Source: Daphnia pulex
Taxonomy: Eukaryota; Arthropoda; Branchiopoda; Diplostraca; Daphniidae
DNA: 64,000 nt
Direction of reading: 5' to 3'
Assembly (NCBI RefSeq): GCF_021134715.1
Contig: NC_060028.1
Span: 4,610,501 to 4,674,500 of the forward strand
Below are positions 12,601 to 35,930 of the stretch, in pieces (position 1 is the first letter of the stretch; every line of letters starts with the position of its first letter). Below the pieces are notes generated by a model. That model saw nothing but the letters and a program-made list of their open reading frames with translations. It made no database searches and was not told the DNA's origin. Both the position numbers and the translations under genes were made by a program.

Positions 12601-13780
12601 CTATGTGGTTAGAAAACAGGACTCAAGAAACGATGGGCTGTTGTTCAAACCGGCAATGAGGAATGTTTCTACGAAAACAGGAATTTATGAGGTATTCAGA
12701 TTGAAAGCCAAGTAAATTATTTCAAACTCTTTGTCAATTTTTATTTTAACAATTTATGAGTATTGAACTTAAAGACATGAATATGCTATGCGAACACTCT
12801 AACCAATACACCACCAATCATATATTTGACTATTACCTCTCAAGTGGTTATTCGAATTTTATATGCGAAGCTGAGTTTTGTAAGTTTCATTAAAATACAG
12901 GAGCAAATACTTACTGGCCAAAGAATTACGTCGTGCGATTAATATTTATTGGTATTTAGGGAAAATCCGAATTTACTTAAGTGGATGATGACTTTTCCCC
13001 CTGTTTAACTTATAATACAACTCAACAGCTCAGTGGTTAGAGCATTGGATCCAGGATACAACGGCCCGTTGTTCAAGCCCACATCGAGATAAGTACGAGA
13101 TACATGTGAGTCTAAGGGGAAGGATTACATGAGGGAGGAGTGTGCAGAGAAGGGATGGTGAGGGTGGGGATGGTGAGGGAAGGGATGGTGAGGGAGGGGA
13201 TGGTGAGGGAGGGGATAGTGAGGGAGGGGATGGTGAGGGAGGGGATGGTGAGGGAGAGGATGGTGAGCGAGGGAAGATAGAGAGGGGGAAGGATGAGAGA
13301 GGGGAGGAAGATGGGAAAAAGTGGGAAGAAATAAATTGGAAGGGAAGAAAGTGAAACGGGAAGATGAGGAAGGAGAGGAAGAAGGAGTTGAGAATCAGAA
13401 TGGAGTGTTTGACGGTCCAAACGTGTTCAAGATTCAAAATACCGTGGAAAACTTCACCGAAACTCGAGTCCGTGGGAAATGTGTCAAATACAATACAACC
13501 AAACTCTGAAAAATAAAAGTCTAAAAATAAAACCAAAACTCAACCGATACTTGGTTTCAACGAAAAAAAAACAAGTCCACAAAAAAACCCCAAAAGACCG
13601 ACTGGCTCACGGTGGAAGATGTACAAGTCCATAAATGGATGAAAAAAAAAGTCCCGGACAGCTAGGAATTGGCCAGTGGGATTATAAGAGTGGCGTTTTG
13701 CTCCATGTGTACTGTGCGCTTAGGTGAACATGTCTAGCCGCCTGGTTCGCCGTCCTTGGACGGGCCTAGGTATACTAGTC
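9607..13780. repeat. Macrosatellite unit U3 (4174 bp), near-identical to U1
   Basis: It has exactly the length of U1 and lies 8002 bp downstream, with only scattered single-base differences. The internal modules are therefore the same: array C about 9942-11387, 35-bp minisatellite about 11431-11737, hairpin boxes about 11809-11969 and 12148-12308, G-rich minisatellite about 13151-13270. U2, which lies between U1 and U3, differs, so the recent duplication involved a two-unit block. Confidence 0.85.
9942..11387. repeat. tRNA-like array C, copy of array A
   Basis: It is offset 8002 bp from array A with the same four convergent pairs and only isolated base changes. Confidence 0.75.
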
Positions 13781-14164
13781 GACTGCTTCGACTGCTTCGA
13801 CTGCTCTATAAACCGCGGGCGTGGGTAAGTGACCTTGGCCAGTCTGTGATTCTGTTTGTGTGTTTGTTTGTTTGTCCGTTTGTTGTTTGTCTGTATCGGC
13901 GAGACGCAACCGGTGGCGAAAGTTTCGAATTGAGTAAGCGAGGCGATACACACACGTCAGCTTTCCTCATCGTTTGTCCGTTTGCGCGCGCCCTTCTCGC
14001 CACACACACACACACGGGCTCGAACCGTGTGCGTTTTTTTTTTTTTTTTTTTTTGCGGACAGGGGGGGGGAGAGAGAGGGGTAGAATTTGTTAGTAGTCG
14101 GGTAGGGTTTTTTTTTTAACATCGACTGCTCTATTCGGTTATATATGTCGATGTCCTCTATTAG

Positions 14165-15545
14165 ATTCGAGTGTACTACTTGGGGTTTGAACCATGGTCG
14201 GAGAGGTGCTTCCGCCGCACATCCGATTGGGATGGCATTGTCGCACACACTCTAACCACTACACTATCAGAACTGATAGTGATATCGAGTTGGAATTTGG
14301 ACAGATGGTTGTTTTTTGTTGCGCTTCCAGTGTTTCGTGAGCGGCGCGCGCCGTTTGTCTTGGACATATTTTTTTAACATCCAATTTCCTCAATTGAATT
14401 CCATCTTTCTAATGGTGTATTGGTTAGCGTGCAGTGCTACCGTGCGAGAGGTCCGAGGTTCGATCCCGGGTCAAGGCACTGTTTTGAATTATTAATTTTT
14501 TAAGTTCAATTTTCAATTCAGAAATTGGAGTGTCTATCGGGAATTGAACCCGAGTACTCACGCATGGTAGGCGAACTCGCTAACCACTTGACCACCAATT
14601 GATAATTTTCTTTGATATTATTGCCAAGTTGTTTCAAACATTTCTGCGTCTCGCGTCACGTCGCTCATGACGCACAGGTGAGCGCGACGCGATGCATCGT
14701 GTCTTTAAGATATATTTTTACATCCAATTCGCTATACTGATTCCATCTCTCTAAAGGTGTATTGGATAGCGTGCTCGACTACGAAGAGAGAGGACCGAAG
14801 TTCGATCCCGGGTCAAGGCACTGTTTTGAATTATTAATTTTTTAAGTTCAATTTTCAATTCAGAAATTGGAGTGTCTATCAGGATTTGATCCCGAGTACT
14901 CACGCATGGGAAGCTAACTTGCTAACCACTTGACCACCAATTATTATTCGGATTCGATCTTATTGACGAGTTGTTTTAAAGATATCTGCGTCTCGCGTCA
15001 CGTCGCTCATGACGCACAGGTGAGCGCGACGCGACGCACCGGATCTCTTAGACATATTGGTAGATCCCATTCCCTTTATTGTTATCATCGTTCTAATGAT
15101 CTATTGGATAGCATGCACGGCTACGAAGCGAGAGGTTCGATCCCTGGTCAAGGTGCTGTTATTAATTTGCAATTTTTTGCAATTTATTATTTTTTGCAAT
15201 TTATTAATTTGCAATTTTCAATTCTCATTATAGAAATTAGTGGCTGTCGGGATTTGAACCCGAGTTCTCACACATGATAGGCGAACTTGATAACCACTTG
15301 GTCACAAACTGATATTCATCATTGAGCTCATTTAAGAGTAATTTCAAACATTTCGGTGTCTCGAATTTCACACGTCGCGTTACACTTGCTAAACACAGGT
15401 GAGCGCAACGCGACGCACCGTGTCTCTACGACATATTTTTAGATCCAATTCTCTACGTTGAATTTCATCTCTATAATGGTGTATTGGTTAGCGTCTTATG
15501 CTACCATGAGAGAGGTCCGCGGTTCGATCCCGGTCAAGGTCAACT
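14165..15545. repeat. tRNA-like array D
   Basis: A leading minus tRNA-like sequence (14165-14275) is followed by plus members at about 14408, 14752, 15095 and 15476 and minus members at about 14534-14600, 14876-14940 and 15245-15312. The last plus member has no partner: the macrosatellite pattern stops at about 15545, where the RepHel-bearing block begins. Confidence 0.7.
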
Positions 15546-16023
15546 TTATTTAATGTTTACATGAATTAATTTAGAAATTAGGGTTATATCGATATTATAT
15601 CGAGTCACGTTGCTCATCGAGCAGACGATGGTAATCATTGTTGTTTACAACAACTGACACGTCAAATTTTGTCTCGAGTAATAGATTTCTTCGATTTTGA
15701 TTTCTCGATTGCGATTGATTTCATACTCCAAACTGTGTAAATTCGAGACAAATTGGGTAAGTCAAACTGGTGTATCAAATAGATACAGTGTAAATATACA
15801 ATTCTTTCATCATTTGTCAAACGTAAATATTTGTGATTGACTTATGTTTTGACTTACATGTAACAAGACAAAAAGTTTGACGAATTGGTGACTTCATCGA
15901 CTCTTTTCAAACTTTCAGCCAAATAAAGCAATACTCTTAATTGCCAGGTGACTGATATAGATTTCATTTATCTCAATTCCAACAAATTCAACTGTTTCAT
16001 GTTTGGCATTATAGATTTCTCGG
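15546..16023. other. Left edge of inserted block; no gene seen
   Basis: This is AT-rich sequence of about 480 bp. A short fragment near 15916-15953 looks like a truncated mini-exon cassette (TTTCAG, then CTCTTAATTGCCAG followed by GTGACT). A small hairpin TTGTTGTTTACAACAA lies near 15640. I found no transposon end. The copy in U5 is at about 32809-33286. Confidence 0.4.
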
Positions 16024-18667
16024 CCTGTTGTATATATAATCACAGTGACTGTGTTTCTACTTCAAGCCTGCGACTGGCATCTGGATTTTCATAGCCAGGT
16101 ACAAGTATTGCTATTTTATTTCATTTCAATTACAAAAAAAAAGATGATGAAAATATTTGTTTAATTCACCAGTTTGTAGTGTACTATCGAAAGGACTGCA
16201 TTCCCTTCTTCGAGCCCATGACTGGCATCAGGATTATCATAGTCAGGTAAGATTTTTCAGTTCACTTTTATCCATTTGAACAAGCCCATGGTTTGAATCT
16301 TTGCTACGAACTCATAAGTGATTGTCTTCGACGATTTTCTTCCCATTTTATCCGCTCTCGGTGTAGTGGTTAGCGTGTTGGATTTCAAACACTGGGGTTA
16401 ATGGTTCGGTTCTCGATAACAGCACTTAAATTTACGATGGTGAAAATTGTTGTAGCTACCAAACACGACCCTTTGAATTGTTTTTGAACACTCGAGTTCT
16501 TATACGTGTATGTAATTTGCATTTTAATTTTCAGCCTGTAGTGTACAATCGAGGTGAGTGCCTGCCTTCCTCACTTGCGGCCCATGACTGGCATCAGGAA
16601 TTTAATTGTCAGGTACAAACATTGCAGTTTATTTCATTATAATTAAAAACAGTAGGATTAAAATATATTTTTGCATTCATTAGCCTGTAGTGTATTATCG
16701 AAAGGACTGCATTTCCTTCTTCGAGCCCATGACTGGCATCAGGATTATCATAGTCAGCTAAGATTTTTCAGTTCACTTTTATCCATTCGAACAAGCCCAT
16801 GACATGAATCTTTGCTCCGAACTCATAAGTGATCGTCTTCGACGATTTTCTTACAATTTACATCCGCTCGTGGTGTAGTGGTTAGCGTGTTGGATTTCAA
16901 ACACTGGGTTCAATGGTTCGGTTCTCGATGACAGTACATAAATTAACGATGGTGAAAATTGTTGTATGTTCTACCAATCACGACCATTTGAATTATTTTT
17001 TTTCCTGTTTTTGAACACTCGAGTTCTTATACGTGTATGGATTTTGAAATTTAATTTTCAGCCTGTAGTGTACAATCGAGGTGAGTTGCTTCCTTCCTCA
17101 CTTGCGGCCCATGACTGGCATCAGGAATTTAATTGTCAGGTACAAACATTGCAGTTTATTTCATTGCAATTAAAAATAGTAGGATTATAACATATTTTTG
17201 CATTCATTAGCCTGTAGTGTATTATCGAAAGGACTGCATTTCCTTCTTCGAGCCCATGACTGGCATCAGGATTATCATAGTCAGGTAAGATTTTTCAGTT
17301 CACTTTTATCCATTCGAACAAGCCCATGGCATGAATCTTTGCTCCGAACTCATAAGTTATTGTCTTCGACGATTTTCTTACAATTTACAACCGCTCGTGG
17401 TGTAGTGGTTAGCGTGTTGGAAATCAAACACGGGGGGTTAATGGTTCGGTTCTCCATGACAGCACATAAATTGGAGATGGTGAAAAATTGTTGCACGTGT
17501 TAGCAATGACGACCATGTGAATTATGTTTTGTATTAATTTTGAACACTCGAATTCTTATATGTGTATGTATTTTGCAATTTGTTTTTCAGCCTGTAGTTT
17601 ACAATCGAATTGAGTGCCTTCCTCACTTTCGAACTACGACTGGCAACAGGAATTTAATAGTCAGGTACATTTTTTGTCGATTCCATTTATTTTAATGAAA
17701 AGAATTAGCTTTCACAAATATTTTCATCACCAGCCTGTAGTGTTCCGTCGAAGTTACTCCGTTTCTCGCTTCCAGCCAACGACCGGCATCAGGACTTTAA
17801 TTGTCAGGTAAATTGTTTTTATTGTACCTTTTTTCCATTAGAACATGTTTATAGCACGTTTTATTACCTGCTATAAAATTGGTAGTTGATAACTTTAGAA
17901 CTTTTTTGCCAAAAATTATTCTGAGTTGGTGTAATGGTTAACGTTCTAGCATGGTAATCTCGATCAACAGAGGCTCTGTGTTCAACTCTCGGGCGGTGTG
18001 TTTTAATTTAGAAGGAATGTTGGTCGATAATTGAAATTTATGTTAGTGGTTTGCTATGTTTTCGACTGTGTCCAATGCTCAACAAAAGAGACAGAGTTCA
18101 ATTCAGTAGCTCTAGGCTACAATTTTTTTGTCTTCGAATCGCCAACCAATTTGTACCCAAACATGGTGTAGTGGTTATCACCTTTGGTTTCTAATCGAGT
18201 GGTCAAATGTTCGAATCTACTTCCATTCAAATTCGTTTTGGGTCTTTGTGAAGAATTTCGTTATTCTGTTGAACTTTGATTAAGTTGGCAATTGTTTATC
18301 ATGCACTTCCTTCGAAAAAAAAAAGAAACCAGAAATCGACAGGTAACGGTGATTTTGTCGTCGATTTACTACATTTTTGTATCGGAACGTGGCGTTGTGG
18401 TTAGTGCGTTCGATTTCAAACGCACAGGTTGATGGTTCAAGTCTGGTTCCATAAAATAAACTTTACCAATAAAAAATGTGCGCGTCAATTACTGAAGTTG
18501 GATAAGATGTTTGCAATTTTTTACTGATACAAGCTTTTATTTTGCATTAAATAGCCTGTAATGCATCGAATTTGTGACCAGATCTTCAAGTCGCCATTCA
18601 CTTCCGCTCCGGGATGTCTTCCAGCTTACTTCTAACTTCCTACGGCATCAGGACACTCATTGCTCAA
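16024..18667 (+). repeat. Tandem ~520-bp repeats of mini-exon-like cassettes plus tRNA-like sequences (copy 1)
   Basis: Nine cassettes lie at 16024-16098, 16173-16246, 16535-16612, 16684-16757, 17062-17139, 17211-17284, 17591-17664, 17734-17807 and 18555-18667. Each begins after a splice-acceptor-like TTNCAG or TTAG, usually with CCTGTAGTG, and ends in TCAG or similar, followed in most by GTAAG or GTAC. Most are 74, 75 or 78 bp, and the first eight come in pairs separated by about 70 bp. Pairs repeat every 511-529 bp, with a tRNA-like sequence in each longer gap (about 16353, 16863, 17391, 17922). More tRNA-like sequences lie near 18163 and 18383. Frame 0 reads PVVY.R at the start and either DWHQEFNCQ or TGIRTLIVR at the end. 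The function is unknown. Confidence 0.6.
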
Positions 18668-19166
18668 GTAAAGTACTTTCCGAATTCCAACAATTTAAAG
18701 TCCGTAGCATGTTTTTATTAGCCTGCTAAAGACTTATTAGTTGTGGTGTCCGACGGTTTTCAGCCAATTTGTGCTGGTCTTGGTATAGAGGTTAGCATTT
18801 TGGCTTTTAACAGTCACAATTGCGATAAAAATCCCGATCAAGTCAGCATCAAGTTGAGCGCAAATGAAAATAATTGCATAATTGTTGACATTTTTGGGGG
18901 TCAGTCATTGTAAAACGAACAGTCGACAACCGGAGAGGAGCTAACCTGCGATGCGTATTTGTTTATCAGATGTGAACCTTAACCGGGCTGTACCACTGGG
19001 ATATTGAGCACCGGTTGTGTCGACGGCTTACGTTCGAATTTGTGTTTAATTTTAAGCTTTTTGAAATTTTTGCGGTGTAAAGCCCTCCAAAAGCCCTCCA
19101 AAAAGCCCTCCACTGATAGAAGCGAATTTTTTTTGATAAATTAGGGGTTATTTTGCTGAGTTGAAA
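18668..19166 (+). other. Leader of RepHel copy 1
   Basis: This is the stretch immediately upstream of the RepHel start codon. It contains a degenerate tRNA-like sequence near 18777, an inverted repeat GTCGACAACCGG (922-933 of 18900s) with CCGGTTGTGTCGAC (19011-19024), and three tandem GCCCTCCA repeats at about 19080-19113. No upstream open frame of note is present. The equivalent stretch in U5 is 35931-36429. Confidence 0.4.
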
Positions 19167-22100
19167 ATGCCACCGCGTCGCGAATTAACTCGAGAGGAAA
19201 AAGATGAGAAGAATAGGAAGGCTAGGGAAAAAAGAAGTAACGAAGACCCGGAGGCAAAGGAAGTGCGATTGGCGGCTAATAGGGAAAGGGCCAAGATCGC
19301 TCGTGAAGAGAAGCGACGTCGGCTCAATCCCGAAGAAGTTCAGGTTGCAAAAAATTTGAATGCGAAAAAGGCTAGGGAAGAGCGTCAGGCAGAGGCACCT
19401 GACGAGAGAGCGTTGAGGCAGAGGTTAGATGCTGAGCGGAAGAGAGTCGCCCGTGCTAACGAGACTCAGGTTGACCATGAAGCTAGACTGCATGATCAGC
19501 GAATCCGTCAGCAACTCCTTCGACAGGAACAAGCGGAAGAAGAAAATCGTGCTCGACTGTTAGCCGAGGCGGAGCGGCAAGCAGTTTTTCGTCAAGAAGA
19601 AGAAAATCGTGCGCGACTGTTAGCCGAGGCGGAGCGGCAAGCAGTTCTTCGTCAAGAAGAAGAAAATCGTGCGCGACTGTTAGCCGAGGCGGAGCGGCAA
19701 GCAGATCTTCGTCAAGATGAACAAATTCGAGCTCGATTGCAAGCCGAGGCAGAGCGGCAAGCTGCTCTTCGTCAACAAGAAGCAGCAATTATTCTACGAG
19801 CGATGAATCAGAGACCTGCATGTGATCGCCCAAGAGTTGTTCTTGCTAATGATGCTGTGGCAGAGCGTCCAGCAAGACAACAACATCAGGCAAGAAAGAG
19901 AGCTGCTGACGACACCGAAACTGCTGAAGAACAACGAGCTAGGTTGCAAGCCCAGGCATTGCGGAAGAAATATCTGCGGAGAGATGAATCGGAAGCAGAG
20001 AGATCAGCAAGACTTCAAGATCAGGCATTGAGGCAAAAATCTCTGCGGAACGAGGAGTCTGAAGCAGAGAAATCTTCTAGACTTTGTGAACAGGCTTTGC
20101 GGCAACATTCTCTGCGGAAAGAGGAATCTGAGGAAGAAAAATGGGCAAGACAGCGAGCGCAGGCAGTACGGCAAAAAAATTTGCGAAATAAGGAGCTAGA
20201 AGTAGAAAAGCAGGCACGACTTCAAGATAAGTTATTACGTCAAAATGCTGTTCGCGACAAAGAAACTGAAGAAACTACTTTGGCTCGACTTTGCGATCAG
20301 TCGTTACGCCAAGAAGCTGTACGTGGCAGAGAAACAGGAGAAGAAAGATTGGAGCGCGCTATCGCTGATAGATTCCTTCATCAAGTAAATCTCTTCGAAG
20401 AAACTGAGGAAGATACCGCAGAACGACGTGAGCAGCACACGGAAGTCATGACTGATTATAGAGCGACTGAAAATGAGGAAGAAACAGCTGATAGGCGTGA
20501 AGAGGATAGGTTGCGAACAGAGCTACAGCGAGAACATCAATTTGAAAGAGAGCGAGAAGAGGAAGAACTGCGAGCAAGAAATGCGCTTCAACACGCCGAA
20601 ATTGTTCCCGTTGAAACCGCAGACCACGAAGCTTTTCTTCGTGAGATGCACCTTGATCGCAACCGTGCTGGAAATCGGCGAACGCATCGGATAGCTTGCA
20701 AAGACATTGTTGTAGAGGATCGGGTTCATTTGCTTGACATTGGAGATTTGACCAAGATTTGTGCTGAGTGTGACGCCAAACACTTTGAAAAAGAGATGCC
20801 AAAAGATCAAAAGTTCCAGCGATGCTGCGGAAAGGGAAAAGTGATTATTCCACCACCAAAGCCATGTCCGCAACCCTTGGCCAGTCTCTTGCAAAATCAG
20901 CATCCAAAGTCCAAGCAATTCATGAAGCAAATTCGAAACTACAACAGTGCTCACGCTTTTGCTTCGCTTGGAGCAAACCAATCTCCACCACCAAACCGAG
21001 GTCCCTACTGCTATCGAATTCATGGCCAGATTTACCATCAAATCACTCCGCTTGGTCCAACACCAAATCCCAGATATGCAGATCTGTATTTTTTGGACTC
21101 GGCGCAGGCCACTGATTATAGGGCAAATATCCAGGCAATGTCGGGTTGTTGTAGAATATTGATGGAAGAATTGGACGCTATGCTTCGAGAGAAGAATCCG
21201 TACGCCTTGGTTTACAAGATGATGCGCCAAGTTCTTGAAGAAGAATACGTTCAACGCCAGGCCGCAAATCTTCCTCACTACACTGTCGGCATGATCATCA
21301 CTTGTGATAGAAGAAATGTCGACCAGCGGCGCTACAACTGCCCGACGGCCCACGAGATAGCAGTAGTATTCAAAAGCTCTGATGGAGCTCCGCCATCCAA
21401 CAGAGATATTCGTGGCCATCTCTATATTCCCGTCAGAGGCCGACGTTTCATCCAGATTAACACACAGAAGCCCATGTGTGATCCGATGTGTTATCCTCTG
21501 CTATTCCCCAACGGTGAAGATGGTTGGCATACTCACATGAATTATAACACCACCAGTCGGAGGGAAAGAGATGAAGCAGCAGCAATGGCAATGATTGTTG
21601 ATGAGGATGAAGAGGAGCAGATTGATCCCCTGTGGCCCAACCCCAGAGTTTTAATTCGTGAAGAAGTCGCCGCAGCAGATGGCAATGCTGAGATTGAAAA
21701 TGAGCGAATTGTAGAACCGGAACCAGCCGAAGCAGACGAGAACGATGATCAACAATCAAACAGGAACAGAGGCCCACGCTCAAGAGTGACGCAAGCCGAG
21801 TTCTACAGTTCAATCATGTCAATCCGCGGTGATTTCAATATCGTTTTGTCCGGGGGTGCCCTCACTCAGCAATATTTTGTCGATTCTTACGTCAAGACCG
21901 AGGGGAATCGCATAGATTGGCTCAGAAAACACCAGACAGAGCTGCATGTTGAGCGCTACTGCGGTCTGATGGATTACATCAACAATCGAGCGGAAAGAGA
22001 AAATGTGGAAGTTGGCACTATCTACATTCTCCCTTCGTCCTTCATTGGCAGTCCTCGAGCCATGAAGCAAAATTATCAAGACGCGATGGCAATTGTTGCC

Positions 22101-25100
22101 AAATTTGGGAAACCAACTTTTTTTTTAACGTTTACTTGCAATCCCAAGTGGAGAGAAATTACGGCAAATATTGCGAACTATCAGACAGCTTCTGATCGTC
22201 CCGATATGGTCGCACGAGTCTTCCACTTGAAGAAAAAAGAGTTGGTCGACGACATCGAGAAAAAGCAAGTTTTGGGTTTCGCCACAGCTCATATCGAAGT
22301 CATCGAATTTCAAAAACGCGGTCTTCCTCATTGCCACATGCTGATCTGGATCGATAAGAGAGATGCCCCTTTATCACCAGAAGATATGGACAAGACCATT
22401 TGTGCGGAAATTCCCGACAAGTCTCTCCATCCAAGACTCTACGCCGCTGTTATGGCTCACATGATCCACGGCCCGTGTGGAGCCATCAACAAAAAGTCTC
22501 CTTGCATGGATGTTGAAGGGTGCACCAAAAAGTTTCCGAAAGATTTCATCGCAGGAACCATCATCAACGACAACGGCTATCCGACTTATAGAAGAAGAGA
22601 CACTGGAGTTAAACATCCGTTGAAAAGAGGGAATGTCGTCTATGAAGTAGACAACAGATGGGTTGTGCCTTATAACCCTTGGTTGCTGCTGAAATATGAC
22701 TGTCACATAAACCTCGAATCCTGCGCTTCACTCACCAGTGTCAAATACATCTTTAAGTACGTGTACAAAGGCCATGACAGCGGAAACATTGAGACAAAAA
22801 AGGGAACGCATCAGCAAGTTGAAGGTGAAGATGAGCCGACATTCGTGTGGGACGAAATCACTACTTTTTTGGACACGCGTTACGTCAGCGCACCAGAAGC
22901 CGCCTGGAGAATCAATAAGTTTCCCCTCAGCAATCGTTCCCATGTCATCTTTCGACTTGCCGTACATCTTCCATTGGAACAGTCCGTCTTTTTTCACCCG
23001 GGGAACGAGGAACAAGCAGTCGCCAACGCCGCTTTGAAAGAAACGACTTTAACTGCTTTTTTCATCTTGAACCGGGATAATGAAGAAGCGAGGCAGTATT
23101 TTTACAGAGAGATTGTCAACCATTTTGCTTTCGTCAAGGTTGGTGGCCGTAATTTCTGGAAGCGACGAGTTCAAAATCTCAAAATCATTGGCCGATTGTA
23201 CACGGTGAGTGTCCGTCAAATTGAGCGATTCTGCCTGCGCTTGCTCCTCATTAACGTCAAAGGACCGACCAGTTTTGAAAATCTTCGAACAGTCAACGGT
23301 GTAATTTTACCGACGTTTAAAGCAGCCGCCGCTGCCTTAAATTTGTTGGAAGATGACAGCGTTTGGGAGAGGACACTGGACGATGCGGCCGCCTTTGAAA
23401 TGCCAGAACGATTGCGACAGCTTTTTGTTGACATTTGTCTGTTTTGCAATCCTACGGATGCTCTTTATCTCTTTGAGCGATCTTTGCCTCAGCTAATGGA
23501 AGATTTTATTCGTAATGGTCACGACGCCGAAATAGCAAAAAACTTGACTTTGAAATTTATTCAAGACAAGCTACTTCTCAACAATCAAACGATGGAAAAT
23601 CTCTCATTGCCTGTTCCTGATTTTCAGCTTATTCATCGTCTTATCGCGGCTCAACTCGAAGAAAATGCTGAAATTACTATGAGAGAGAAGAGAAGATTGG
23701 GTGAATTGATGGTTAGTCAGTTGAACGAAGGTCAACGGGCTGCCTTCGATCAAGTCATGGCTGCCGTCAACGATACTGAAAATGCAATTCCGCATCAGTA
23801 TTTCTTGGATGGCCCTGGAGGAACGGGGAAGACGTTCCTGTACAACACTCTCATCACCGTACTGCAGGGACAAGGGAAAACAGTGATCGCCGTTGCGTCT
23901 ACCGGCATCGCTTCTACGTTGTTGATTGACGGCACAACGTATCATTCCCAATTCAAGATTTACCCTCCAATTACTGAAGCGACCAGATCAAAAATCGAAG
24001 ATGGTAGCTTCCTCGCCCATTTGATCAGAAGTGCAGTTCTCATCATTTCTGACGAAGCCACCATGAAGACAAATCACGCCCTTAGTGCTTTCAATTTCCT
24101 GTTCCAAAAGTTGCACAAGAACAATCTTCCTCACGGTGGTAAAGTGCTCCTTCTTGGTGGCGATTTTCGTCAGTGTTTACCGGTCGTCCGACACGGAAAC
24201 AGGGTGACAGTGCTGGAAGTCACTATCCGAAACAATGACACTTGGCCTCAGTTTCGACAACTTCGTCTGACTCAAAATATGCGTACCGTGGCCGGCAGTC
24301 AAGACTACGCCGATTGGCTCATTCAGCTTGGAAACGGAACTCTACCGACGCATCCAAAATTGAACATCCCCGATATGATTGAAATTCCTAAAGAATTTTT
24401 CAATTATAACCGGAGTTTAGTCGAGCACGTCTTTGGTGATCCTGCTCAACTGTTAGATCCCGTCGTATCTCAACAAATATGCAGTCGCGCTATTCTTTGT
24501 CCGAAAAACGGCGATTGCTTACGAATCAACAATCAGATCATCAAAGACATGCCCGGTACGCTTCATGAGTACAGAAGCATCGATACCATCGACTCTGACG
24601 ACCCTGAAGAAATTTCAAATTACCCAACCGAAGTTCTCAACTCCTTTGACGTCTCCGGAATTCCCACCCATTTGCTGAAAATGAAAGTGGGAGCCGTCAT
24701 CATTCTTCTGAAGAATATCGATTCGCGTCAGGGACTTTGCAATGGGACCCGGCTCATCATCAGGGCGCTTAGAGAAAATCTGATCGTTGCAGAAATTGCT
24801 GCTGGAAAAAACAAGGGGCACATCGTCTACATCCCGCGGATGATGATGTCCCCAACTGATTCGGATCTTCCAGTCATCCTCAAGAGGCTCCAGTTTCCCG
24901 TTTTGTTGGCGTTTGCGATGACCATCACAAAGTCACAGGGCCAAACGTTTGATCGGGTCGGAATATTACTTCCAGAACCCGTCTTCAGTCATGGCCAGCT
25001 GTATGTGGCCTTCTCCAGAGCTACATCGAAAGACGGTTTATTTTGATTTCTTATACATTTTTAAAATTAATAGTTTCATGAAATATTCAATAATTCTAAT

Positions 25101-25253
25101 ATTTTTTGTGTTCCCTCCCAAAAAGGAGTCCGAGTCGAGATTGCTGAGTCTGGGAAGCAAGGCAAGCTTCTCAAAAATCATCCGACAGCCACCGAAGAAG
25201 AAAAGAAAAAGGTGTTTACTTTAAATGTTGTCTTTAAAGAAGTTTTATTGTAA
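19167..25253 (+). CDS. Helitron RepHel transposase (HUH endonuclease + PIF1 helicase), copy 1
   Basis: This is a rolling-circle transposase of 1998 residues in two exons, 19167-25035 and 25126-25253; the 90-nt intron falls between SKDG and VRVEIAE. I start at the first ATG (MPPRREL). Residues 1-440 are a charged Arg/Glu/Gln coiled-coil-like region with four exact 20-residue repeats (DNA 19539-19778) and then about six 23-residue repeats. A Cys cluster lies at 532-554. The Helitron N-like domain is at about 870-1060, and the HUH motif HCHMLIW at 1055-1061. Candidate catalytic tyrosines lie in KYIFKYVYKG (1193-1202). PIF1 motifs: Walker A GPGGTGKT 1549-1556, DEA 1629-1631, GGDFRQ around 1666, LTQNMR 1701-1706, TITKSQGQT at 1919 and SRAT with Arg 1951. 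No AP-endonuclease, OTU or RPA domain was seen. The frame is uninterrupted and all motifs are present, so it could be active. Confidence 0.95.
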
Positions 25254-25920
25254 CCATTTTAGACAACTGCAATTTAAACATTTAGTCAAACATTCTCAAA
25301 TCTAATTAAGAAATATTGATTTTTTGGTGAATACATTAATACATTCCCTTCCATTCCTTTCCTTCCCAAGAGGAACTAAATTCCGCCTCGGCCTATGGGC
25401 CAAAAAAAGGAGCACGGGCATGGCCATGGGGGCAGTTCCCATGTGCGCTCAACCGTGAATTAACAAACCTTATAAATAATAAACAATGGTCTTTCTCAAG
25501 ATTTTATAAAACTTTTATTTTCATAACTATTTCTACAAGAATTTTTTATTTGTACGAGCAATAATGAACACTCAAAACAAAATTTTTCAAGACTTGAAGC
25601 CTAAGACAGAAATAAGCAATAACTGTTGCATGGCCAAAATTCATCAATTTTATTTCAGATTTAAATTTGATCATTTCAATTTATTTTTTTCCATTTTATC
25701 CTAAACAAATTTCATCCACTTGAATTAGCTATGTCACTGATTGAACAACATGACGTTTTTTTTCTGGAAAGATTGACTTTTACTTAACATACCTAAAGTC
25801 GTTGACGGATGAATAGGAATCCTTATACTACTAAAAAGTCATGGACGGATGAATAGAATGTCAATACTACTCACACTCTCCTTTAACACAGAAAAGGACT
25901 CAAATTTTTCAGCAAACACA
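25254..25920. other. 3' flank of RepHel copy 1; no gene
   Basis: This is AT-rich sequence with a short GC-rich island at about 25381-25447 that can form small hairpins (GGCC TATG GGCC; CATGGG ... CCCATG). It is the most likely place for a Helitron 3' terminal hairpin, but no CTRR end follows it, so the terminus is not established. The equivalent stretch in U5 is 42517-43183. Confidence 0.35.
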
Positions 25921-25924
25921 ACGT

Positions 25925-27730
25925 AGTCACATGGTGTAGTGGATAAAGTGCCGGACTATAAAGAAAGCGGTCTACGGTTCAAGTCCAGACCAGTGGTTTT
26001 CAATTTATCACTTAGGATAGAGCAGTAGAAATTAGTCATATAATGTTAATTACTACTTTATTATTTGTGCGTTTACATGAATGATTTACTATTTACGTAA
26101 TTTCTTAATCTGAAGCTTATCAAAAATCGAAAATAACACAAAAACCAATAATATTTTCAATATTTCAAATTTATGCAATGTTCCGTGGTGTATGATGAAG
26201 CAGATGCTAATGAAGCAAATAGTCTTATTATTGAAAACTTCAAAATCCGATGTAAATAAAATTTCTTTGCTCACGCTGGGTGATAACTATGACAATGTGT
26301 AAGTATGCGCTATCCAACTGGTCACATCGGATATTATTTGTAAACACCGTTGTTGATGTAGTGGTTATAGCATTGCATTAGTAGGTCAAAAGTGTTTGGT
26401 TCAAACCCCAGCTCAGGCAAGCAAATAGTACCCGAAACGATGAATTCTTAAAATGAAGTAAATAAATTATTTTTGTTCTTGCTGGGCGATGACACTGAAA
26501 ATGAAGAAGTATGCACTATCCAGCGGATATCGTCAAGAATTGGAAGAACACACCGCCGATGGGGTAGTGGTTATATCAATGGATTAGTAATTCAAAGGAT
26601 GTTGGTTCAAATCCACTCTCAGTATAACTATAAAATAGCACTCAAAAAACAGCATGCAAATGAATGGCAAGCTGGAAAAGAATAAATCTTTACATGAATG
26701 ATTTACTATTAACGTAATTTCTAGATCTAAAGCTTTATAATATAAAATACGTAAACCAATAAAATTTTCCATATTTCAAATTTATGCATCGTTCCCTGGT
26801 GAATGATGAAGCAGATGCTTATGAAGCAAATAGTCTTATTATAGATAAATTCAAACTCCGATGTAAAAAAAATGTCTTTGCTCACGCTGTGTGATATCTA
26901 TGACAATGTGTAAGTAGGCGTTATCCACCTTTAACGTCAGATATTTATTGTAAATACCGTTGTTGTAATGGTTATAGCGTTGAATTGGTAATTCAAAGGT
27001 GGGTGGTTCAAACCCCCACTCGGGCAAGCAAATAGTTCCCAAAACAATGAATTCTTAAACTGCAGCAAATAAATTGTTTTTGTTCTTGCTGGGCGATGAC
27101 ACTGACAATGAAGAAGTATGCACTATCCAGCTGGTATCGTCAAGATTTGCAAAATACCACAGCCGATGGTGTAGTGGTTATAGTATTGGTTTGTTAATTC
27201 AAGGAATGTTGGTTCAAACCCACTCACAGCATAACTATAAAAATGCACTCAAATTGCATACAAATGAATCGTAATTTGGAAAAGAACAAAGTTTTACATG
27301 AATGACTTACTATTAACGTAATTTCTAAATCTAAAGCTTTATCGAAAAAAATACAAAACCAACAAAATCTTCAATATTTCAAAATTATTTATCGTTCCGT
27401 GGTGTAGCGGTTAAAGTAATGAAATGTGATTCCTAAGATCAATGGTTCAAATCTAAATTTCGAAAATAATGAATTCATATTAAATTTTCAATATTTATGT
27501 AATAAGGATAATGATAAAAATTATAGTGGTTGAAAAAACTCTTACTCATACAATGTCCAATTCAAAGTACAATGTTCTACTTTTCTTCTTTTGAGTTCCA
27601 TCAAAAATAAAAAAAAAACGAATATAGCATTAAACATTTGATATTAAAATAAGTCTCCATAGTGTAGTGGTTAAAGAGATGGAATATAAATCCTTAAGGT
27701 TAAAAGTCAATGGTTCAAATCAAGAATCAA
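25925..27730 (+). repeat. ~600-bp tandem repeats with tRNA-like sequences (copy 1)
   Basis: The block TTTACATGAATGATTTACTA recurs at about 26071, 26692 and 27293, giving periods of about 620 and 600 bp. tRNA-like sequences, all on the plus strand, lie at about 25925-25995, 26345-26415, 26559-26625, 26955-27030, 27162-27228, 27397-27460 and 27657-27725. They carry TGGTGTAGTGGTTA-type A boxes and GGTTCAAAYCC-type B boxes. The one at 26955 has an anticodon-like arm TTGAA-TTGGTAA-TTCAA, a 5-bp stem with a 7-base loop. None closes a full cloverleaf by eye. Confidence 0.6.
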
Positions 27731-27923
27731 AGAGAAGTAGTGCTACGTACTTATATGGATTTTAAAATATTAAGAACATCAATTATGAAGTTGGAAAAAT
27801 AAAAAAAGCAAACTAAATGAATATTCTAATACTCTGTTTATTACTGATCAATAACCAACAAATCAACAAAATTAACAAATAAAAAACAAAGAAAAAAAAT
27901 TAAACAAATCGAAAAAAAAACAT

Positions 27924-28583
27924 CTAAATCACATCTCCAAACATTCTCTGTGCCTCAGCTTCATCCTTGCACATTTTGGAGCGGAATGAGGCCAGCTCCT
28001 TTTTGGCCCATGCCTCATTCCGCTTAGATCTTTCCAAAGCAGCTTCAGCACTAAAATGAAAAAAAAAATTACATAAAAAAACAAACATGAAATAACTTGG
28101 ATAAACTTACTTCTGTCGGTTTTTCTTAAATTTTTCGTGCCGAGTTTTCAGCTGCACTCCACGTAATAGATTGGATCTTCTCCTATCTTCAATCCTCTGA
28201 AATTCTGAAATCGTCCAAGATTGAAGAAAGGAGACAGGTGGGGAAGACGGCGGGGTATTGAAATCCATATCCATGGATGCTAAAACCCCGTCAACTTCGT
28301 CATCACCCAGTGGATTTTCTTCAGGGACAACCACTTGAGGAGACAAAGAGACGGGGGGAGAAACAACAGGCAAATCTATCAAACAAAAAAAAACAATGAA
28401 TAGAACAGAAATATTGGATAACATTAAGGAGACTTACCAGAATTGGGTATTCCATCACGGACAACCACTTGAGGAGACAAAGAAACGGGGGGAGAAGCAA
28501 CAAGCAAATCTATGATACAAAAAAAACAATGAATATAACAGAAATATTGGATAACATTAAAGAGACTTACCAGAGTTGGGCAT
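27924..28583 (-). CDS. Unrecognised 158-residue protein with a duplicated exon (copy 1)
   Basis: I reconstruct four exons on the minus strand: 28583-28571 (ATG, 13 bp), 28509-28438 (72 bp), 28375-28111 (265 bp) and 28050-27924 (127 bp, TAG). All junctions are GT-AG and the phases agree, giving 159 codons with the stop. The second exon and the start of the third encode two versions of a Ser/Pro/Val segment (SPPVSLSPQVVV in each), so an exon was duplicated. The middle is acidic (GDDEVDGVLASMDMD), then FLQSWTISEFQRIEDRRR, and the C-terminal third is a charged, probably helical KKNRQNAEAALERSKRNEAW segment. I do not recognise the family. It lies 2.7 kb downstream of RepHel in opposite orientation within the same inserted block, so it may be an accessory or captured gene. 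A start further upstream is possible. Confidence 0.6.
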
Positions 28584-28619
28584 GTTGTCAAGGGGAAGTT
28601 CAGAGAGAATGTGAAAAAC

Positions 28620-28844
28620 AATTATTCGTTGACTTACCAGCAAGATAATAAGCCGCCAAACGAAATAAAAGCACAAAACATAAGCTTCCCTCCAAAAAAC
28701 CACGCCCACTGGTTGCAATTTTTATCGTTGATATAATGATTTTGAACACGTGAAAAAAATTAAGCATTGCCTCTCCCCAAACCAGGTGTTGAGGGTTGGA
28801 TTTTTTTTATTGATATTCAATGTCCTCCAATATTTATGTATGTG
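28620..28844. other. Right edge of inserted block; no gene
   Basis: This is 225 bp between the 158-residue gene and the diverged tRNA-like array. A donor-like TTGCTG|GTAAGT on the minus strand at about 28640 hints at a 5' non-coding exon, but no matching acceptor was found. No transposon terminus was recognised. Confidence 0.3.
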
Positions 28845-29580
28845 TAGTACTTGGGGTTTGAACCATAATCCGTGAGGTGTTACCGCCACATACATGTAAG
28901 GGCATGGCATTGTAACACACACTCTAACCACTACACTATCAGAACTAATATCATTATCGAGTTCCAATTTCGACAAATGGTTGTCGCGCTTCACGTTTTT
29001 TTTTATTAACGTGTAACTACGACATATTTATAAATCCCATTACTTCTATTAAATTCCATCTCTTTCATGGTGTATTGGGTAACGTTCTCTGCTATCATAC
29101 AAGATGTCCGAGTTTCGATACTTGGTTAAGGCGCTTTAATTCAATATTAATTCAAACATTTATTTTCAATTTTGAAATTGGTGTTTTTAGGGAATTGAAC
29201 CCGAACATAACGCATAGAAAGCGAACTCGCTAACCAATCGATCACCAATTGATATTCAATTCTGATCTCATTGACAAGTGGTTTCAAACATCTCTGCATC
29301 TCGCGTTGCAACTGGCACACAGGTGAGCGCGACGAACCGTGTCTCTACGACATATTTATACATTCCATAACATATAGTGTATTCCATCTCTCTCATTGTG
29401 TATTGGTTAGCGTGCTTGATTGTCATGCGAGAAATCCGAGGTTCAAACTCCGGGTAAAGTCACAGTTGCTAATTATTAATTCGGTCATCAATATATTTTA
29501 GAAACTATTGTTTATCGGGAGTTGAACCCGGGTACTCACTCATAGTAAGAGAATTCGCTAACCACTTGACCACCTATTGA
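28845..29580. repeat. Diverged tRNA-like array E (copy in U5 at about 46108-46843)
   Basis: A leading minus tRNA-like sequence (28845-28960) is followed by two convergent pairs: plus members at about 29063 and 29390, minus members at about 29175-29250 and 29510-29580. It has the same design as arrays A-D but with more base changes, so it is an older relative. It marks where normal macrosatellite sequence resumes after the insert. Confidence 0.65.
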
Positions 29581-31774
29581 TACCAATACCGATTGATCCT
29601 ACAGAATCCATTTGGCCATGATTGGATGTATGAGAAATCTAATGACAGTGGTTTAACTGGTAAATTATTTGTCCACAGGCAGAAAATTTAAGCGCACGCT
29701 CACGCTTAACGGGCAGGGAATTTTAAATGTCCTTCAGAATACGCTGGGCCATAAGTGGATGTATAAGAAATCTATTGACAGTGGTTTAATTGGTAAATGC
29801 GTAACTGAGTTCAACGGGCAGATAGTGTTCAAGTTACAAAAAAACGAGGATACCTTCATCGCGATTCGAGCCCGTGGCGGTGGGGCCCCCGAAGGGGCAC
29901 CCCCGCGGCCGCGAGAGCTCGTGGTAAAGGAATTCGAGGGAATTTGTCGGGGCAAACGCAAGGTATTAGAGATTCAATAACATTGGTTCAACTTGCGAAT
30001 GATTTGTCCACGGCAGGAAATTTAATTTAAACTGTTAAAAAACGTGGAGGAAATTTTAAGTGTCCTACAAAACACGTTGGGTGAAACATAACATCTACTA
30101 ATTTGTTCACATTGGGCCACGAGTAATTGCAACTAATTCGCTAACGTCGGGTGATGAATTTTTATACCTAGCAAATTTTAATGTTCAAAATCGATGTTGC
30201 CTTACATTGGTCGATGGCTTCCTTTTAAGAAAATGTGTCAACACATCTCATTAGCCAAGTTGTTAGAGAATAAGATTCAAGTAACGATGGGCTGTTGTTC
30301 AAACCGGCAATGAGGAATGTATAGACGAAAACAGGAAATTATGAGGTATTCAGATTGAAAGCCAAGTAAATTATTTCAAACACTTTGTCAATTTTTATTT
30401 TCACAATTTATGAGTATTGAACCTAAAGACATAAATGTGCTATGCGAACACTCTAACCAATACACCACCAATAATGTATTTTACTATTACCTCTCAAGTG
30501 GTTATTCGAATTTTATATGCGAAGCTGAGTTTTGTAAGTTTCATTAAAATACAGGAGCAAATACTTACTGGCCAAAGAATTACGTCGTGCGATTAATATT
30601 TATTGGTATTTAGAGCAAATCCGAATTGACTTAAGTGGCTGATGACTTTTCCCCCTGTTTAACTGATAATACAACTCAACAGCTCAGTGGTTAGAGCATT
30701 GGATCCAGGATACAACGGCCCGTTGTTCAAGCCCACATCGAGATAAGTACGAGATACATGTGAGTCTAAGGGGAAGGATTACATGAGGGAGGAGTGTGCA
30801 GAGAAGGGATGGTGATGGTGGGGATGGTGAGGGAGGGGATGGTGAGGGAGGGGATAGTGAGGGAGGGGATGGTGAGGGAGGGGATGGTGAGGGAGAGGAT
30901 GGTGAGGGAGGGAAGATAGAGAGGGGGGAGGATGAGAGAGGGGAGGAAGATGGGAAAAAGTGGGAAAAAATAAATTGGAATGGAAGAAAGTGAAACGGGA
31001 AGATGAGGAAGGAGAGGAAGAAGGAGGTGAATATCAGAATCAGCTCCAAACGTGTTCAAGTTACAAAAAACCGTGGAAAACTGCACCGAAACTCGAGACC
31101 GTGGGAAATGTGTCAAATCCAATAGAACCAAACTCTGAAAAATAAAAGTCCCAAAATAAAACCAAAACTCAACCGATACTTGCTTGCAACGAAAAAAAAA
31201 CAAGTCCACAAAAAAAACCCAAAAGACCGACTGGCTCACGGTGGAAAATGTAAAAGTCCATAAATGGATGAAAAAAAAAGTCCCGGACAGTAAGGAATTG
31301 GCCAGTGGGATTATACGAGTGGCGTTTTGCTCCAGGTGTACTGTGCGCTTAGGTGATTATGTCTAGCCGCCTGGTTCGCCGTCCTTGGACGGGCCTAGGT
31401 ATACTAGTCGACTGCTTCGACTGCTCTATAAACCGCGGGCGTGGCTTAGTGACCTTGGCCAGTCTGTGATTCTGTTTGTGTGTTTGTTTGTTTGTCTGTT
31501 TGTTGTTTGTCTGTATCGGCGAGAAGCAATCAGTGGCGAAAGTTTCGAATTGAGTAAGCGAGGCGATACACACGTCAACTTTCCTCACCGTTTGTCCGTT
31601 TGCGCTCGCCCTTCTCGCCACACACACACACACGGGCTCGAACCGTGTGCGTTTTTTTTTTTTTTTTTTTTTTGCGGACAGGGGGGGAGAGAGAGGGCTA
31701 GAATTTGTTAGTAGTCGGGTAGGGTTTTTTTTTTTTACCATCGGTTATATATGTCGATGTCCTCTATTAGATTC

Positions 31775-32808
31775 GAGTGTACTACTTGGGGTTTGAACCA
31801 TGGTCGGAGAGGTGCTTCCGCCGCACATCCGATTGGGATGGCATTGTCGCACACACTCTAACCACTACACTATCAGAACTGATATTGATATCGAGTTGGA
31901 ATTTGGACAGATGGTTGTTTTTTGTTGCGCTTCCAGTGTTTCGTGAGCGGCGCGCGCCGTTTGTCTTGGACATATTTTTTTACATCCAATTTCCTCAATT
32001 GAATTCCATCTTTCTAATGGTGTATTGGTTAGCGTGCAGTGCTACCGTGCGAGAGGTCCGAGGTTCGATCCCGGGTCAAGGCACTGTTTTGAATTATTAA
32101 TTTTTTAAGTTCAATTTTCAATTCAGAAATTGGAGTGTCTATCGGGAATTGAACCCGAGTACTCACGCATGGTAGGCGAACTCGCTAACCACTTGACCAC
32201 CAATTATTATTCGGATTTGATCTTATTGACAAGTTGTTTTAAAGATATCTGCGTCTCGCGTCACGTCGCTCATGACGCACAGGTGAGCGCGACGCGACGC
32301 ACCGGATCTCTTAGACATATCTGTAGATCCCATTCCCTTTATTGTTATCATCGTTCTAATGATCTATTGGATAGCATGCACGGCTACGAAGCGAGAGGTT
32401 CGATCCCTGGTCAAGGTGCTGTTATTAATTTGCAATTTTTTGCAATTTATTATTTTTTGCAATTTATTAATTTGCAATTTTCAATTCTCATTATAGAAAT
32501 TAGTGGCTGTCGGGATTTGAACCCGAGTTCTCACACATGATAGGCGAACTTGATAACCACTTGGTCACAAACTGATATTCATCATTGAGCTCATTTAAGA
32601 GTAATTTCAAACATTTCGGTGTCTCGAATTTCACACGTCGCGTTACACTTGCTAAACACAGGTGAGCGCAACGCGACGCACCGTGTCTCTACGACATATT
32701 TTTAGATCCAATTCTCTACGTTGAATTTCATCTCTATAATGGTGTATTGGTTAGCGTCTTATGCTACCATGAGAGAGGTCCGCGGTTCGATCCCGGTCAA
32801 GGTCAACT
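31775..32808. repeat. tRNA-like array D' (one pair fewer than D)
   Basis: This is the copy of array D in U5. Plus members lie at about 32015, 32357 and 32738. Compared with D, exactly one ~344-bp pair is missing between the first and second pair, as expected for recombination between neighbouring repeats. Confidence 0.7.
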
Positions 32809-33286
32809 TTATTTAATGTTTACATGAATTAATTTAGAAATTAGGGTTATATCGATATTATATCGAGTCACGTTGCTCATCGAGCAGACGATGGTAATCA
32901 TTGTTGTTTACAACAACTGACACGTCAAATTTTGTCTCGAGTAATAGATTTCTTCGATTTTGATTTCTCGATTGCGATTGATTTCATACTCCAAACTGTG
33001 TAAATTCGAGACAAATTGGGTAAGTCAAACTGGTGTATCAAATAGATACAGTGTAAATATACAATTCTTTCATCATTTGTCAAACGTAAATATTTGTGAT
33101 TGACTTATGTTTTGACTTACATGTAACAAGACAAAAAGTTTGACGAATTGGTGACTTCATCGACTCTTTTCAAACTTTCAGCCAAATAAAGCAATACTCT
33201 TAATTGCCAGGTGACTGATATAGATTTCATTTATCTCAATTCCAACAAATTCAACTGTTTCATGTTTGGCATTATAGATTTCTCGG

Positions 33287-35930
33287 CCTGTTGTATATAT
33301 AATCACAGTGACTGTGTTTCTACTTCAAGCCTGCGACTGGCATCTGGATTTTCATAGCCAGGTACAAGTATTGCTATTTTATTTCATTTCAATTACAAAA
33401 AAAAAGATGATGAAAATATTTGTTTAATTCACCAGTTTGTAGTGTACTATCGAAAGGACTGCATTCCCTTCTTCGAGCCCATGACTGGCATCAGGATTAT
33501 CATAGTCAGGTAAGATTTTTCAGTTCACTTTTATCCATTTGAACAAGCCCATGGTTTGAATCTTTGCTACGAACTCATAAGTGATTGTCTTCGACGATTT
33601 TCTTCCCATTTTATCCGCTCTCGGTGTAGTGGTTAGCGTGTTGGATTTCAAACACTGGGGTTAATGGTTCGGTTCTCGATAACAGCACTTAAATTTACGA
33701 TGGTGAAAATTGTTGTAGCTACCAAACACGACCCTTTGAATTGTTTTTGAACACTCGAGTTCTTATACGTGTATGTAATTTGCATTTTAATTTTCAGCCT
33801 GTAGTGTACAATCGAGGTGAGTGCCTGCCTTCCTCACTTGCGGCCCATGACTGGCATCAGGAATTTAATTGTCAGGTACAAACATTGCAGTTTATTTCAT
33901 TGTAATTAAAAACAGTAGGATTAAAATATATTTTTGCATTCATTAGCCTGTAGTGTATTATCGAAAGGACTGCATTTCCTTCTTCGAGCCCATGACTGGC
34001 ATCAGGATTATCATAGTCAGGTAAGATTTTTCAGTTCACTTTTATCCATTCGAACAAGCCCATGACATGAATCTTTGCTCCGAACTCATAAGTGATCGTC
34101 TTCGACGATTTTCTTACAATTTACATCCGCTCGTGGTGTAGTGGTTAGCGTGTTGGATTTCAAACACTGGGTTCAATGGTTCGGTTCTCGATGACAGTAC
34201 ATAAATTAACGATGGTGAAAATTGTTGTATGTTCTACCAATCACGACCATTTGAATTATTTTTTTTACTGTTTTTGAACACTCGAGTTCTTATACGTGTA
34301 TGGATTTTGAAATTTAATTTTCAGCCTGTAGTGTACAATCGAGGTGAGTTGCTTCCTTCCTCACTTGCGGCCCATGACTGGCATCAGGAATTTAATTGTC
34401 AGGTACAAACATTGCAGTTTATTTCATTGCAATTAAAAATAGTAGGATTATAACATATTTTTGCATTCATTAGCCTGTAGTGTATTATCGAAAGGACTGC
34501 ATTTCCTTCTTCGAGCCCATGACTGGCATCAGGATTATCATAGTCAGGTAAGATTTTTCAGTTCACTTTTATCCATTCGAACAAGCCCATGGCATGAATC
34601 TTTGCTCCGAACTCATAAGTTATTGTCTTCGACGATTTTCTTACAATTTACAACCGCTCGTGGTGTAGTGGTTAGCGTGTTGGAAATCAAACACGGGGGG
34701 TTAATGGTTCGGTTCTCCATGACAGCACATAAATTGGAGATGGTGAAAAATTGTTGCACGTGTTAGCAATGACGACCATGTGAATTATGTTTTGTATTAA
34801 TTTTGAACACTCGAATTCTTATATGTGTATGTATTTTGCAATTTGTTTTTCAGCCTGTAGTTTACAATCGAATTGAGTGCCTTCCTCACTTTCGAACTAC
34901 GACTGGCAACAGGAATTTAATAGTCAGGTACATTTTTTGTCGATTCCATTTATTTTAATGAAAAGAATTAGCTTTCACAAATATTTTCATCACCAGCCTG
35001 TAGTGTTCCGTCGAAGTTACTCCGTTTCTCGCTTCCAGCCAACGACCGGCATCAGGACTTTAATTGTCAGGTAAATTGTTTTTATTGTACCTTTTTTCCA
35101 TTAGAACATGTTTATAGCACGTTTTATTACCTGCTATAAAATTGGTAGTTGATAACTTTAGAACTTTTTTGCCAAAAATTATTCTGAGTTGGTGTAATGG
35201 TTAACGTTCTAGCATGGTAATCTCGATCAACAGAGGCTCTGTGTTCAACTCTCGGGCGGTGTGTTTTAATTTAGAAGGAATGTTGGTCGATAATTGAAAT
35301 TTATGTTAGTGGTTTGCTATGTTTTCGACTGTGTCCAATGCTCAACAAAAGAGACAGAGTTCAATTCAGTAGCTCTAGGCTACAATTTTTTTGTCTTCGA
35401 ATCGCCAACCAATTTGTACCCAAACATGGTGTAGTGGTTATCACCTTTGGTTTCTAATCGAGTGGTCAAATGTTCGAATCTACTTCCATTCAAATTCGTT
35501 TTGGGTCTTTGTGAAGAATTTCGTTATTCTGTTGAACTTTGATTAAGTTGGCAATTGTTTATCATGCACTTCCTTCGAAAAAAAAAAGAAACCAGAAATC
35601 GACAGGTAACGGTGATTTTGTCGTCGATTTACTACATTTTTGTATCGGAACGTGGCGTTGTGGTTAGTGCGTTCGATTTCAAACGCACAGGTTGATGGTT
35701 CAAGTCTGGTTCCATAAAATAAACTTTACCAATAAAAAATGTGCGCGTCAATTACTGAAGTTGGATAAGATGTTTGCAATTTTTTACTGATACAAGCTTT
35801 TATTTTGCATTAAATAGCCTGTAATGCATCGAATTTGTGACCAGATCTTCAAGTCGCCATTCACTTCCGCTCCGGGATGTCTTCCAGCTTACTTCTAACT
35901 TCCTACGGCATCAGGACACTCATTGCTCAA
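33287..35930 (+). repeat. Mini-exon cassette / tRNA-like repeats (copy 2)
   Basis: This is the U5 copy of the array at 16024-18667, offset 17263, nearly base-identical. One difference falls on a donor-like site: after the fourth cassette this copy has CAG|GTAAG (34021), while copy 1 has CAGCTAAG (16758). Confidence 0.6.

Follow-up and report, generated by a model that had tools for sequence, protein, structure and literature searches.

Tandemly duplicated exon-like cassettes in the putative leader of an autonomous Daphnia pulex Helitron

The window, the whole stretch of 64,000 nucleotides of Daphnia pulex DNA that was analysed, contains an autonomous Helitron of about 17.6 kb at 13779..31407 (+ strand; copy 1), delimited by CTAG|TC junction readings. 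Direct reading gave the 5' end as TCGACTGC... and the 3' end as a hairpin followed by ...TATACTAG; the hairpin, CCGTCC-TT-GGACGG, lies just inside the 3' end, and the termini are the 5' TC and 3' CTRR of Helitrons. Rep and a PIF1-type helicase are encoded in one open reading frame, as is typical of Helitron proteins (Helitron_like_N, 1.7e-57; PIF1, 4e-53; also Pif1_2B_dom). This Rep/helicase (RepHel) ORF extends over 19167..25046 (+), with 1,959 aa from the ATG (the ORF is listed as 19161-25046); its frame opens at 19140, with a stop just upstream, and has its own ATG at 19167. A second copy (31408..48681, +) follows head-to-tail, its right end being the CTAG at 48681, and the two copies are 99.4% identical over 16,723 nt (14700-31409 against 31962-48683). 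CTAG|TC junctions were read directly around 1599, 5779, 13780, and 31409. Between 1599 and 13778 several shorter elements with the same ends stand head-to-tail ahead of copy 1, and they are probably non-autonomous Helitron copies. D. pulex Helitrons in tandem arrays have already been described (PMC2884549).

Nine short segments, here called cassettes, lie about 2.2 to 4.9 kb from the 5' end of copy 1, between that end and the Rep ORF; the array adjoins RepHel because it sits inside the Helitron. The cassettes, all on the + strand, measure 75, 74, 78, 74, 78, 74, 74, 74, and 113 nt. Cassettes 1 (16024-16098), 3 (16535-16612), 5 (17062-17139), and 7 (17591-17664) hold the A position, and cassettes 2 (16173-16246), 4 (16684-16757), 6 (17211-17284; identical to cassette 4), and 8 (17734-17807) hold the B position. 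Cassette 9 (18555-18667) is the last exon-like segment. For cassettes 7 and 9 the edges were read by eye, since the search pattern starts or ends elsewhere there. The arrangement given by the earlier note was borne out: cassettes 1 to 8 form four pairs with within-pair gaps of 74, 71, 71, and 69 nt, and the reported period of about 520 bp corresponds to unit spacings of 511, 527, and 529 calculated from the coordinates, with similar values from a repeat search. Copy 2 carries the same array at 33287..35930 (+), its cassettes being displaced by +17,263.

All nine cassettes had been described as bounded by AG and GT. In copy 1, AG precedes eight of the nine and GT follows eight of the nine, so the description fails at one edge each of cassette 1, preceded by CGG without AG, and cassette 4, followed by CT. 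Conservation of the edges was examined over four arrays, those of window copies 1 and 2, C12:4591874-, and C5:3727325-, and found at AG in 33 of 36 cassettes and at GT in 35 of 36. Each of the three missing AGs belongs to cassette 1, which is present in three of the copies, and cassette 4 of window copy 1 is the sole cassette of the 36 without GT; its counterpart in copy 2 (33947-34020) has GT after it. The array is carried by four Helitron copies, with three to five pairs each: four in either window copy, five in C12:4591874-, and three in C5:3727325-, where the left part is deleted. The left junction of this C5 copy, looked at for Helitron insertion between A and T without target duplication, reads ATA|TCGACTGC at the occupied site. 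Around C5:3726953-3727104 (in L016) the Helitron has an open RepHel frame and enters the middle of the array after about 150 bp of left end; it lacks the tRNA-like monomers and the first cassettes. The donor of cassette 9, CAA|GTAAAG, is kept in the sister Helitron L024, and the AG of cassette 9 is not.

A further exon-like segment, E0, overlooked in the earlier reading, precedes the array at 15868..15947 (+; alternative start 15919) and has homologues at the related loci C11, L024, L028, and L037. It ends at 15947 with the donor GTGACT. Its donor is GT in four of five copies and GC in L028; by eye an AG precedes it in five of five copies, the aligner position differing between two groups. However, the acceptor of E0 is weak in the window copy (score -1.2, position weight matrix not trained on Daphnia).

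The A and B cassettes were compared in 16 pairs, leaving out the cassette middle, where there are indels. Identity was 75% over the 17 nt at the 5' end of the cassette and 83% over the 30 nt at its 3' end, against 32-38% in the flanks, the homology breaking off at the AG and after GTA. The edges were also scored with a splice-site matrix not trained on Daphnia. The intact edges outscored the remaining GT and AG dinucleotides within 15560-19160 (Mann-Whitney p 8e-7 for donors and 3e-4 for acceptors); with one representative per type, p was 4e-5 and 0.006. This test used nine donors and nine acceptors, with E0 included and lost edges omitted, and these are related copies, not independent trials. 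Because the A/B homology stops at the edges and the edge scores exceed those of other sites, the edges go beyond chance. The within-pair gaps of 69-74 nt fit the intron medians of 63 and 77 bp given for D. pulex in PMC5427498. Three of the four gaps were folded as candidates for mirtron-like short introns, which were rejected (z +1.13, -1.20, and -0.35). The array thus consists of homologous tandem segments with splice-site edges, as duplicated UTR exons do, and the view that the cassettes are exon-like tandem units is well supported by features of the DNA itself. Scored with that matrix, some internal sites run against the exact exons called: GAG|GTGAGT, a donor stronger than the one at the cassette edge, lies within cassettes 3 (16554) and 5 (17081), and stronger acceptors lie within cassette 8 and within E0. 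The exact exon limits may therefore differ from those called. Use of GAG|GTGAGT at 16554 or 17081 would leave a 19-nt micro-exon. The lost AG of cassette 1 in three copies and the lost GT of cassette 4 in window copy 1 also speak against the exon model.

The reading frame was then considered, because the cassettes had been taken for small alternative exons whose first three pairs are in phase. Phase holds inside each of these pairs, where the length of A is a multiple of three and B follows in frame, but it does not hold from B to the next A, where the frame is lost and a stop is met at once. The lengths of the nine cassettes modulo 3 are 0, 2, 0, 2, 0, 2, 2, 2, and 2, and the nine joined together have stops in all three frames. 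The supposed related peptides did not survive the comparison either: the TGIRTLIVR-type and DWHQEFNCQ endings come from a single run of nucleotides translated in two frames, since the 78-nt A cassettes carry four bases more than B. Repeated exons can thus show related peptides as a frame artefact. Cassette lengths vary by 1, 2, 4, and 12 nt, and other copies have frame-breaking lengths, namely one 72-nt B cassette and a 62-nt A-like cassette in the C11 fossil. The absence of a conserved reading frame across cassettes is what is found in duplicated UTR exons. Coding exons as a candidate were rejected on frame. What had been claimed as small alternative exons stands for exon-like tandem duplicates, on homology boundaries, intron-like gap lengths, and lower divergence than the spacers, and is not supported for coding alternatives.

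A rival explanation takes the cassettes for alternative coding exons, of which one or a few would be selected and spliced in phase to RepHel or into a small protein of their own. In its favour, three A cassettes out of four (75, 78, and 78 nt) preserve the frame, and the four joined without B yield 101 open codons; RepHel aside, no stop-to-stop frame that overlaps 15500-19160 is longer than 106 codons. We regard the 101-codon A frame as one short open frame that was copied, and by our estimate a copied open frame of about 26 codons requires no selection. However, A and B are in different frames over their common 3' half, each B throws the cassette behind it into a frame that soon ends, copies differ in length by amounts that break frame, and a stop just upstream of 19140 closes the RepHel frame. 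Dscam-type exon clusters are mutually exclusive, coding, and frame-keeping, with docking/selector pairing. The array resembles them in having many homologous exons in a row, whereas its nine cassettes neither keep the same frame nor show such pairing. A search of 15900-19100 gave no inverted repeat with a length of at least 20 nt, and for words common to the spacers before cassettes 3, 5, and 7 no complementary sites were found at 9, 10, or 11 nt and one at 8 nt, against 0.89 expected. Docking/selector complementarity was thus not found, and alternative coding exons are very improbable.

Relatives of the Helitron were taken from one assembly, in which its protein has at least 45 matches with an E value of 0.001 or below (361 candidates, 24 of them scored). 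The loci fetched were 13 leader regions, C11:5847001-5877000, C2:9528001-9538000, and 3 kb at C12:4132001-, all of which were searched with a cassette profile; the profile of cassettes 1-8 was run against 14 relative loci (L022 and L024-L036), the 30-kb C11 stretch, and the window. L024, L025, L026, L028, L037, C11, and C2 were also read partly by eye. Among the profile-searched loci, confident cassette homologues outside the window were present only at C11:5861338-5862168 and C2:9533687- (L022). In the C2 copy a cassette lies about 170 bp ahead of a stretch with piecewise similarity to internal parts of the Rep ORF; the cassette is therefore an old part of the lineage. Cassettes 1-8 gave no confident profile match in the sister leaders L024 and L028, weak matches (E 1.5-3) were seen in L024, L027, and L028, and L037 (3 kb) gave none at E up to 5 and has other repeats.

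The sister Helitron L024 (C12:4566894-), with 76-81% protein identity, has an array of its own at L024:6485-7510 that is unrelated in sequence to the cassettes, in which AG/GT-bounded units about 97-112 nt long alternate with introns of some 73 nt. It comprises six introns of 67-75 nt that start with GT and five exons of 97-112 nt; two of the 3' edges used in the comparison overshot the AG by 1 and 2 nt, and with these corrected all six introns end in AG. Substitutions in this array number 158/920 in exons and 265/1052 in introns. However, the exons have more gap columns than the introns (216 vs 71), and the exon indels break frame. The recurrence of such an architecture in L024 raises the finding above a single odd repeat.

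Next, divergence of the cassettes was compared with that of their surroundings. Between window copy 1 and C12:4591874- there were 15/790 differences in cassettes and 101/2000 in spacers plus tRNA-like parts (p 8e-5); between window copy 1 and C5 the values were 8/565 and 88/1768 (p 8e-5), between C12 and C5 they were 5/563 and 45/1766, and between window copies 1 and 2 they were 0/792 and 3/2006. Between element copies, cassettes were thus about three times less diverged than the interspersed spacers. Tandem units behaved similarly in the two comparisons that were tested, chosen from twelve printed: w2-w3 gave 3/152 in cassettes vs 36/375 (p 0.0015), and c2-c4 gave 2/152 vs 36/361 (p 0.0003). 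However, in the old unit comparison w1-w2, exon A (21/73) was more different than the spacer (47/212). The stretch before E0 (3/310) and those after cassette 9 (1/499, 3/499, and 2/499) were also less diverged than the cassettes, so low divergence alone is no mark of an exon. Against the C11 fossil unit, with gaps counted, matches were 51/78 in exon A, 26/40 in the 5' flank, and 34/45 in the A-B intron, which runs against the exon model; without gaps, differences were 11/62 in exon A, 15/70 in the A-B intron, and 88/227 in the spacer.

These data bear on another explanation, by which the array is a decaying minisatellite-like tandem repeat in the Helitron leader, its AG and GT deriving from one old exon or from chance, with no splicing today. 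Other tandem repeats abound in the region (the tRNA-like monomers of about 340 bp), all copies have a common ancestry, edges have been lost at cassettes 1 and 4, and the L024 and L028 leaders hold 109-bp repeats without evident exons, all of which would suit such decay. It does not fit well with the stop of the A/B homology at the edges, with the lower divergence of cassettes in both element-copy and tandem-unit comparisons, or with the second, unrelated array of the same architecture in L024. We consider this explanation unlikely on balance, although it is the strongest of the rivals.

The earlier note had placed a tRNA-like sequence in each spacer. Such sequences do alternate with the pairs, by resemblance, at 16352..16425, 16864..16937, and 17391..17465 (spacers 1, 2, and 3; + strand; ends approximate), where they coincide with repeats D5 and D9 and were recognized by eye; but no tRNA model accepts those in the spacers (none with default ARAGORN or with the Rfam tRNA model). 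Relaxed ARAGORN (ps85) called 31 in the window vs 8 in the reversed window, and the list of 31 does not include the spacer sequences at 16352, 16864, and 17391. Between element copies, the tRNA-like parts (32/441, 29/441, and 12/441) were kept no better than the other spacer (69/1559, 59/1327, and 33/1325); summed over all unit pairs, they differed at 614/3294, slightly below the spacer at 2965/13578, the oldest units having no aligned tRNA-like part. We read them, from these comparisons, as decaying passengers. Tandem monomers of about 340 bp with tRNA-like sequences, on both strands, occupy the left part of the Helitrons at 2124-3380, 6315-7265, 10126-11382, and 14366-15135, and ARAGORN called some of them, at relaxed thresholds only.

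The cassettes themselves might be separate small structured RNAs or tRNA-like genes that alternate with tRNA-like promoters; they are tRNA-sized (74-78 nt), and by eye they alternate with A-box/B-box-like sequences. However, the eight cassettes that were folded (cassette 6, identical to cassette 4, was omitted) did not differ from shuffles (z -1.26 to +1.04). Rfam gave no matches at gathering scores, and at E up to 5 only four chance-level matches in 14300-19160. The tRNA-like parts differed at 32/441 and 29/441 between window copy 1 and other copies, vs 15/790 and 8/565 for the cassettes. RNA or tRNA genes were rejected as candidates on the lack of an Rfam match and of a fold signal, and the explanation as a whole is the least probable of those considered, with hardly any weight.

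A leader block lies between the array and the Rep ORF at 18905..19045 (+). It contains CTAAC and then TTTATCAG|ATG, with a candidate last 3' splice site at 18970; CTAAC followed by TTTGTTTATCAG|ATG makes this a plausible site as far as the motifs go. The block matches eight places, with identities of 100, 100, 100, 99, 96, 96, 91, and 83%. It includes an 18-codon uORF from 18951 (MRICLSDVNLNRAVPLGY). Both window copies keep this uORF intact, as do the copies on C5 and C12 and the sister L024; L037 has two changes in it, and in L028 a stop interrupts it. By eye the ends of the block are complementary. As a structured RNA the block was rejected, with z 0.21 over 18915-19045 vs shuffles; a conserved uORF and a branch point with a 3' splice site are possible alternatives. 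However, in L024 the intron that follows cassette 9 equals or exceeds that cassette in conservation, and 18668-19045 might have another function, for example as a promoter.

Taken together, the array shows two diverged types, A and B, of an exon-like unit with AG and GTA at its edges, and a unit of about 520 bp (A, B, and spacer) repeated in tandem. We consider it rather probable that the cassettes arose by tandem duplication and are untranslated exons in the leader of the transcript for the autonomous Helitron Rep/helicase. Transcription would start upstream of the array; the gaps of 69-74 nt and the spacers of 288-747 nt would be removed as introns; and a variable number of cassettes would be spliced to a final leader exon, with 18970 as its candidate start, ahead of the ATG at 19167. 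Extra exon copies would be tolerated because a leader needs splice sites and no frame, and such tolerance would let arrays grow, shrink, or be replaced. The tRNA-like sequences would be carried in the introns as decaying copies. A wider proposal is that this Helitron lineage has an expandable untranslated mini-exon array, repeatedly rebuilt from new sequence, in which the number or choice of cassettes would determine how long the leader is and which uORFs it contains and would thereby adjust replicase expression, a splicing-based copy control; this we regard as a doubtful speculation. If the cassettes are spliced, the transposon's own gene, not a host gene, bears an amplified exon array, and two sister families bear unrelated ones. 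They would then offer a natural system for exon-intron multiplication free of reading-frame restraint, as well as a test of transposon leader splicing as replicase regulation.

The 5' UTR monomers of L1 are promoters that stand in tandem and are replaced between lineages. The Helitron array is likewise made of tandem units in a transposon 5' leader that are replaced between lineages, but its cassettes are exon-intron-like units. Tandem duplications of UTR exons are reported for hydra and pip of Drosophila melanogaster (PMC9013439); hydra has nine initial exons there, seven of them flanked by DINE-1, a rolling-circle element according to the title of PMC4067079. Homologous exons in tandem in an untranslated region are common to hydra, pip, and the leader exons proposed here, whereas the array in D. 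pulex would lie in the leader of a transposon's own gene and consists of internal A/B pairs and not alternative first exons. Recent intron gain is known in this group (PMC5427498). The D. pulex Helitrons HeliDaphA1.1, A2.1, NA1.1, and NA2.1 (PMC2884549) also form tandem arrays of elements; the part of that account consulted deals with ends, the Rep domain, and copy number and mentions no leader exons. No description of Helitron leader exon arrays was found in the literature searched. Tandem UTR exon duplication is already known, from hydra, and what differs here is its place in a transposon's own gene and the unrelated array in a sister.

Other related leaders gave minor observations. A partial reading by eye found splice-like segments near the ATG in L025 (C6) and L026 (C2:11907634-), with no duplicated exon ends found in L026 and apparently two copies of one exon end in L025. 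Tandem units of 109 bp, each containing TTCTTATTCGCAGTCTTTTC and the complement of it as an inverted repeat, occur at L024:8038-8589 and L028:1596-2038, and a repeat that resembles them by eye lies at about 7105-7383 of L026.
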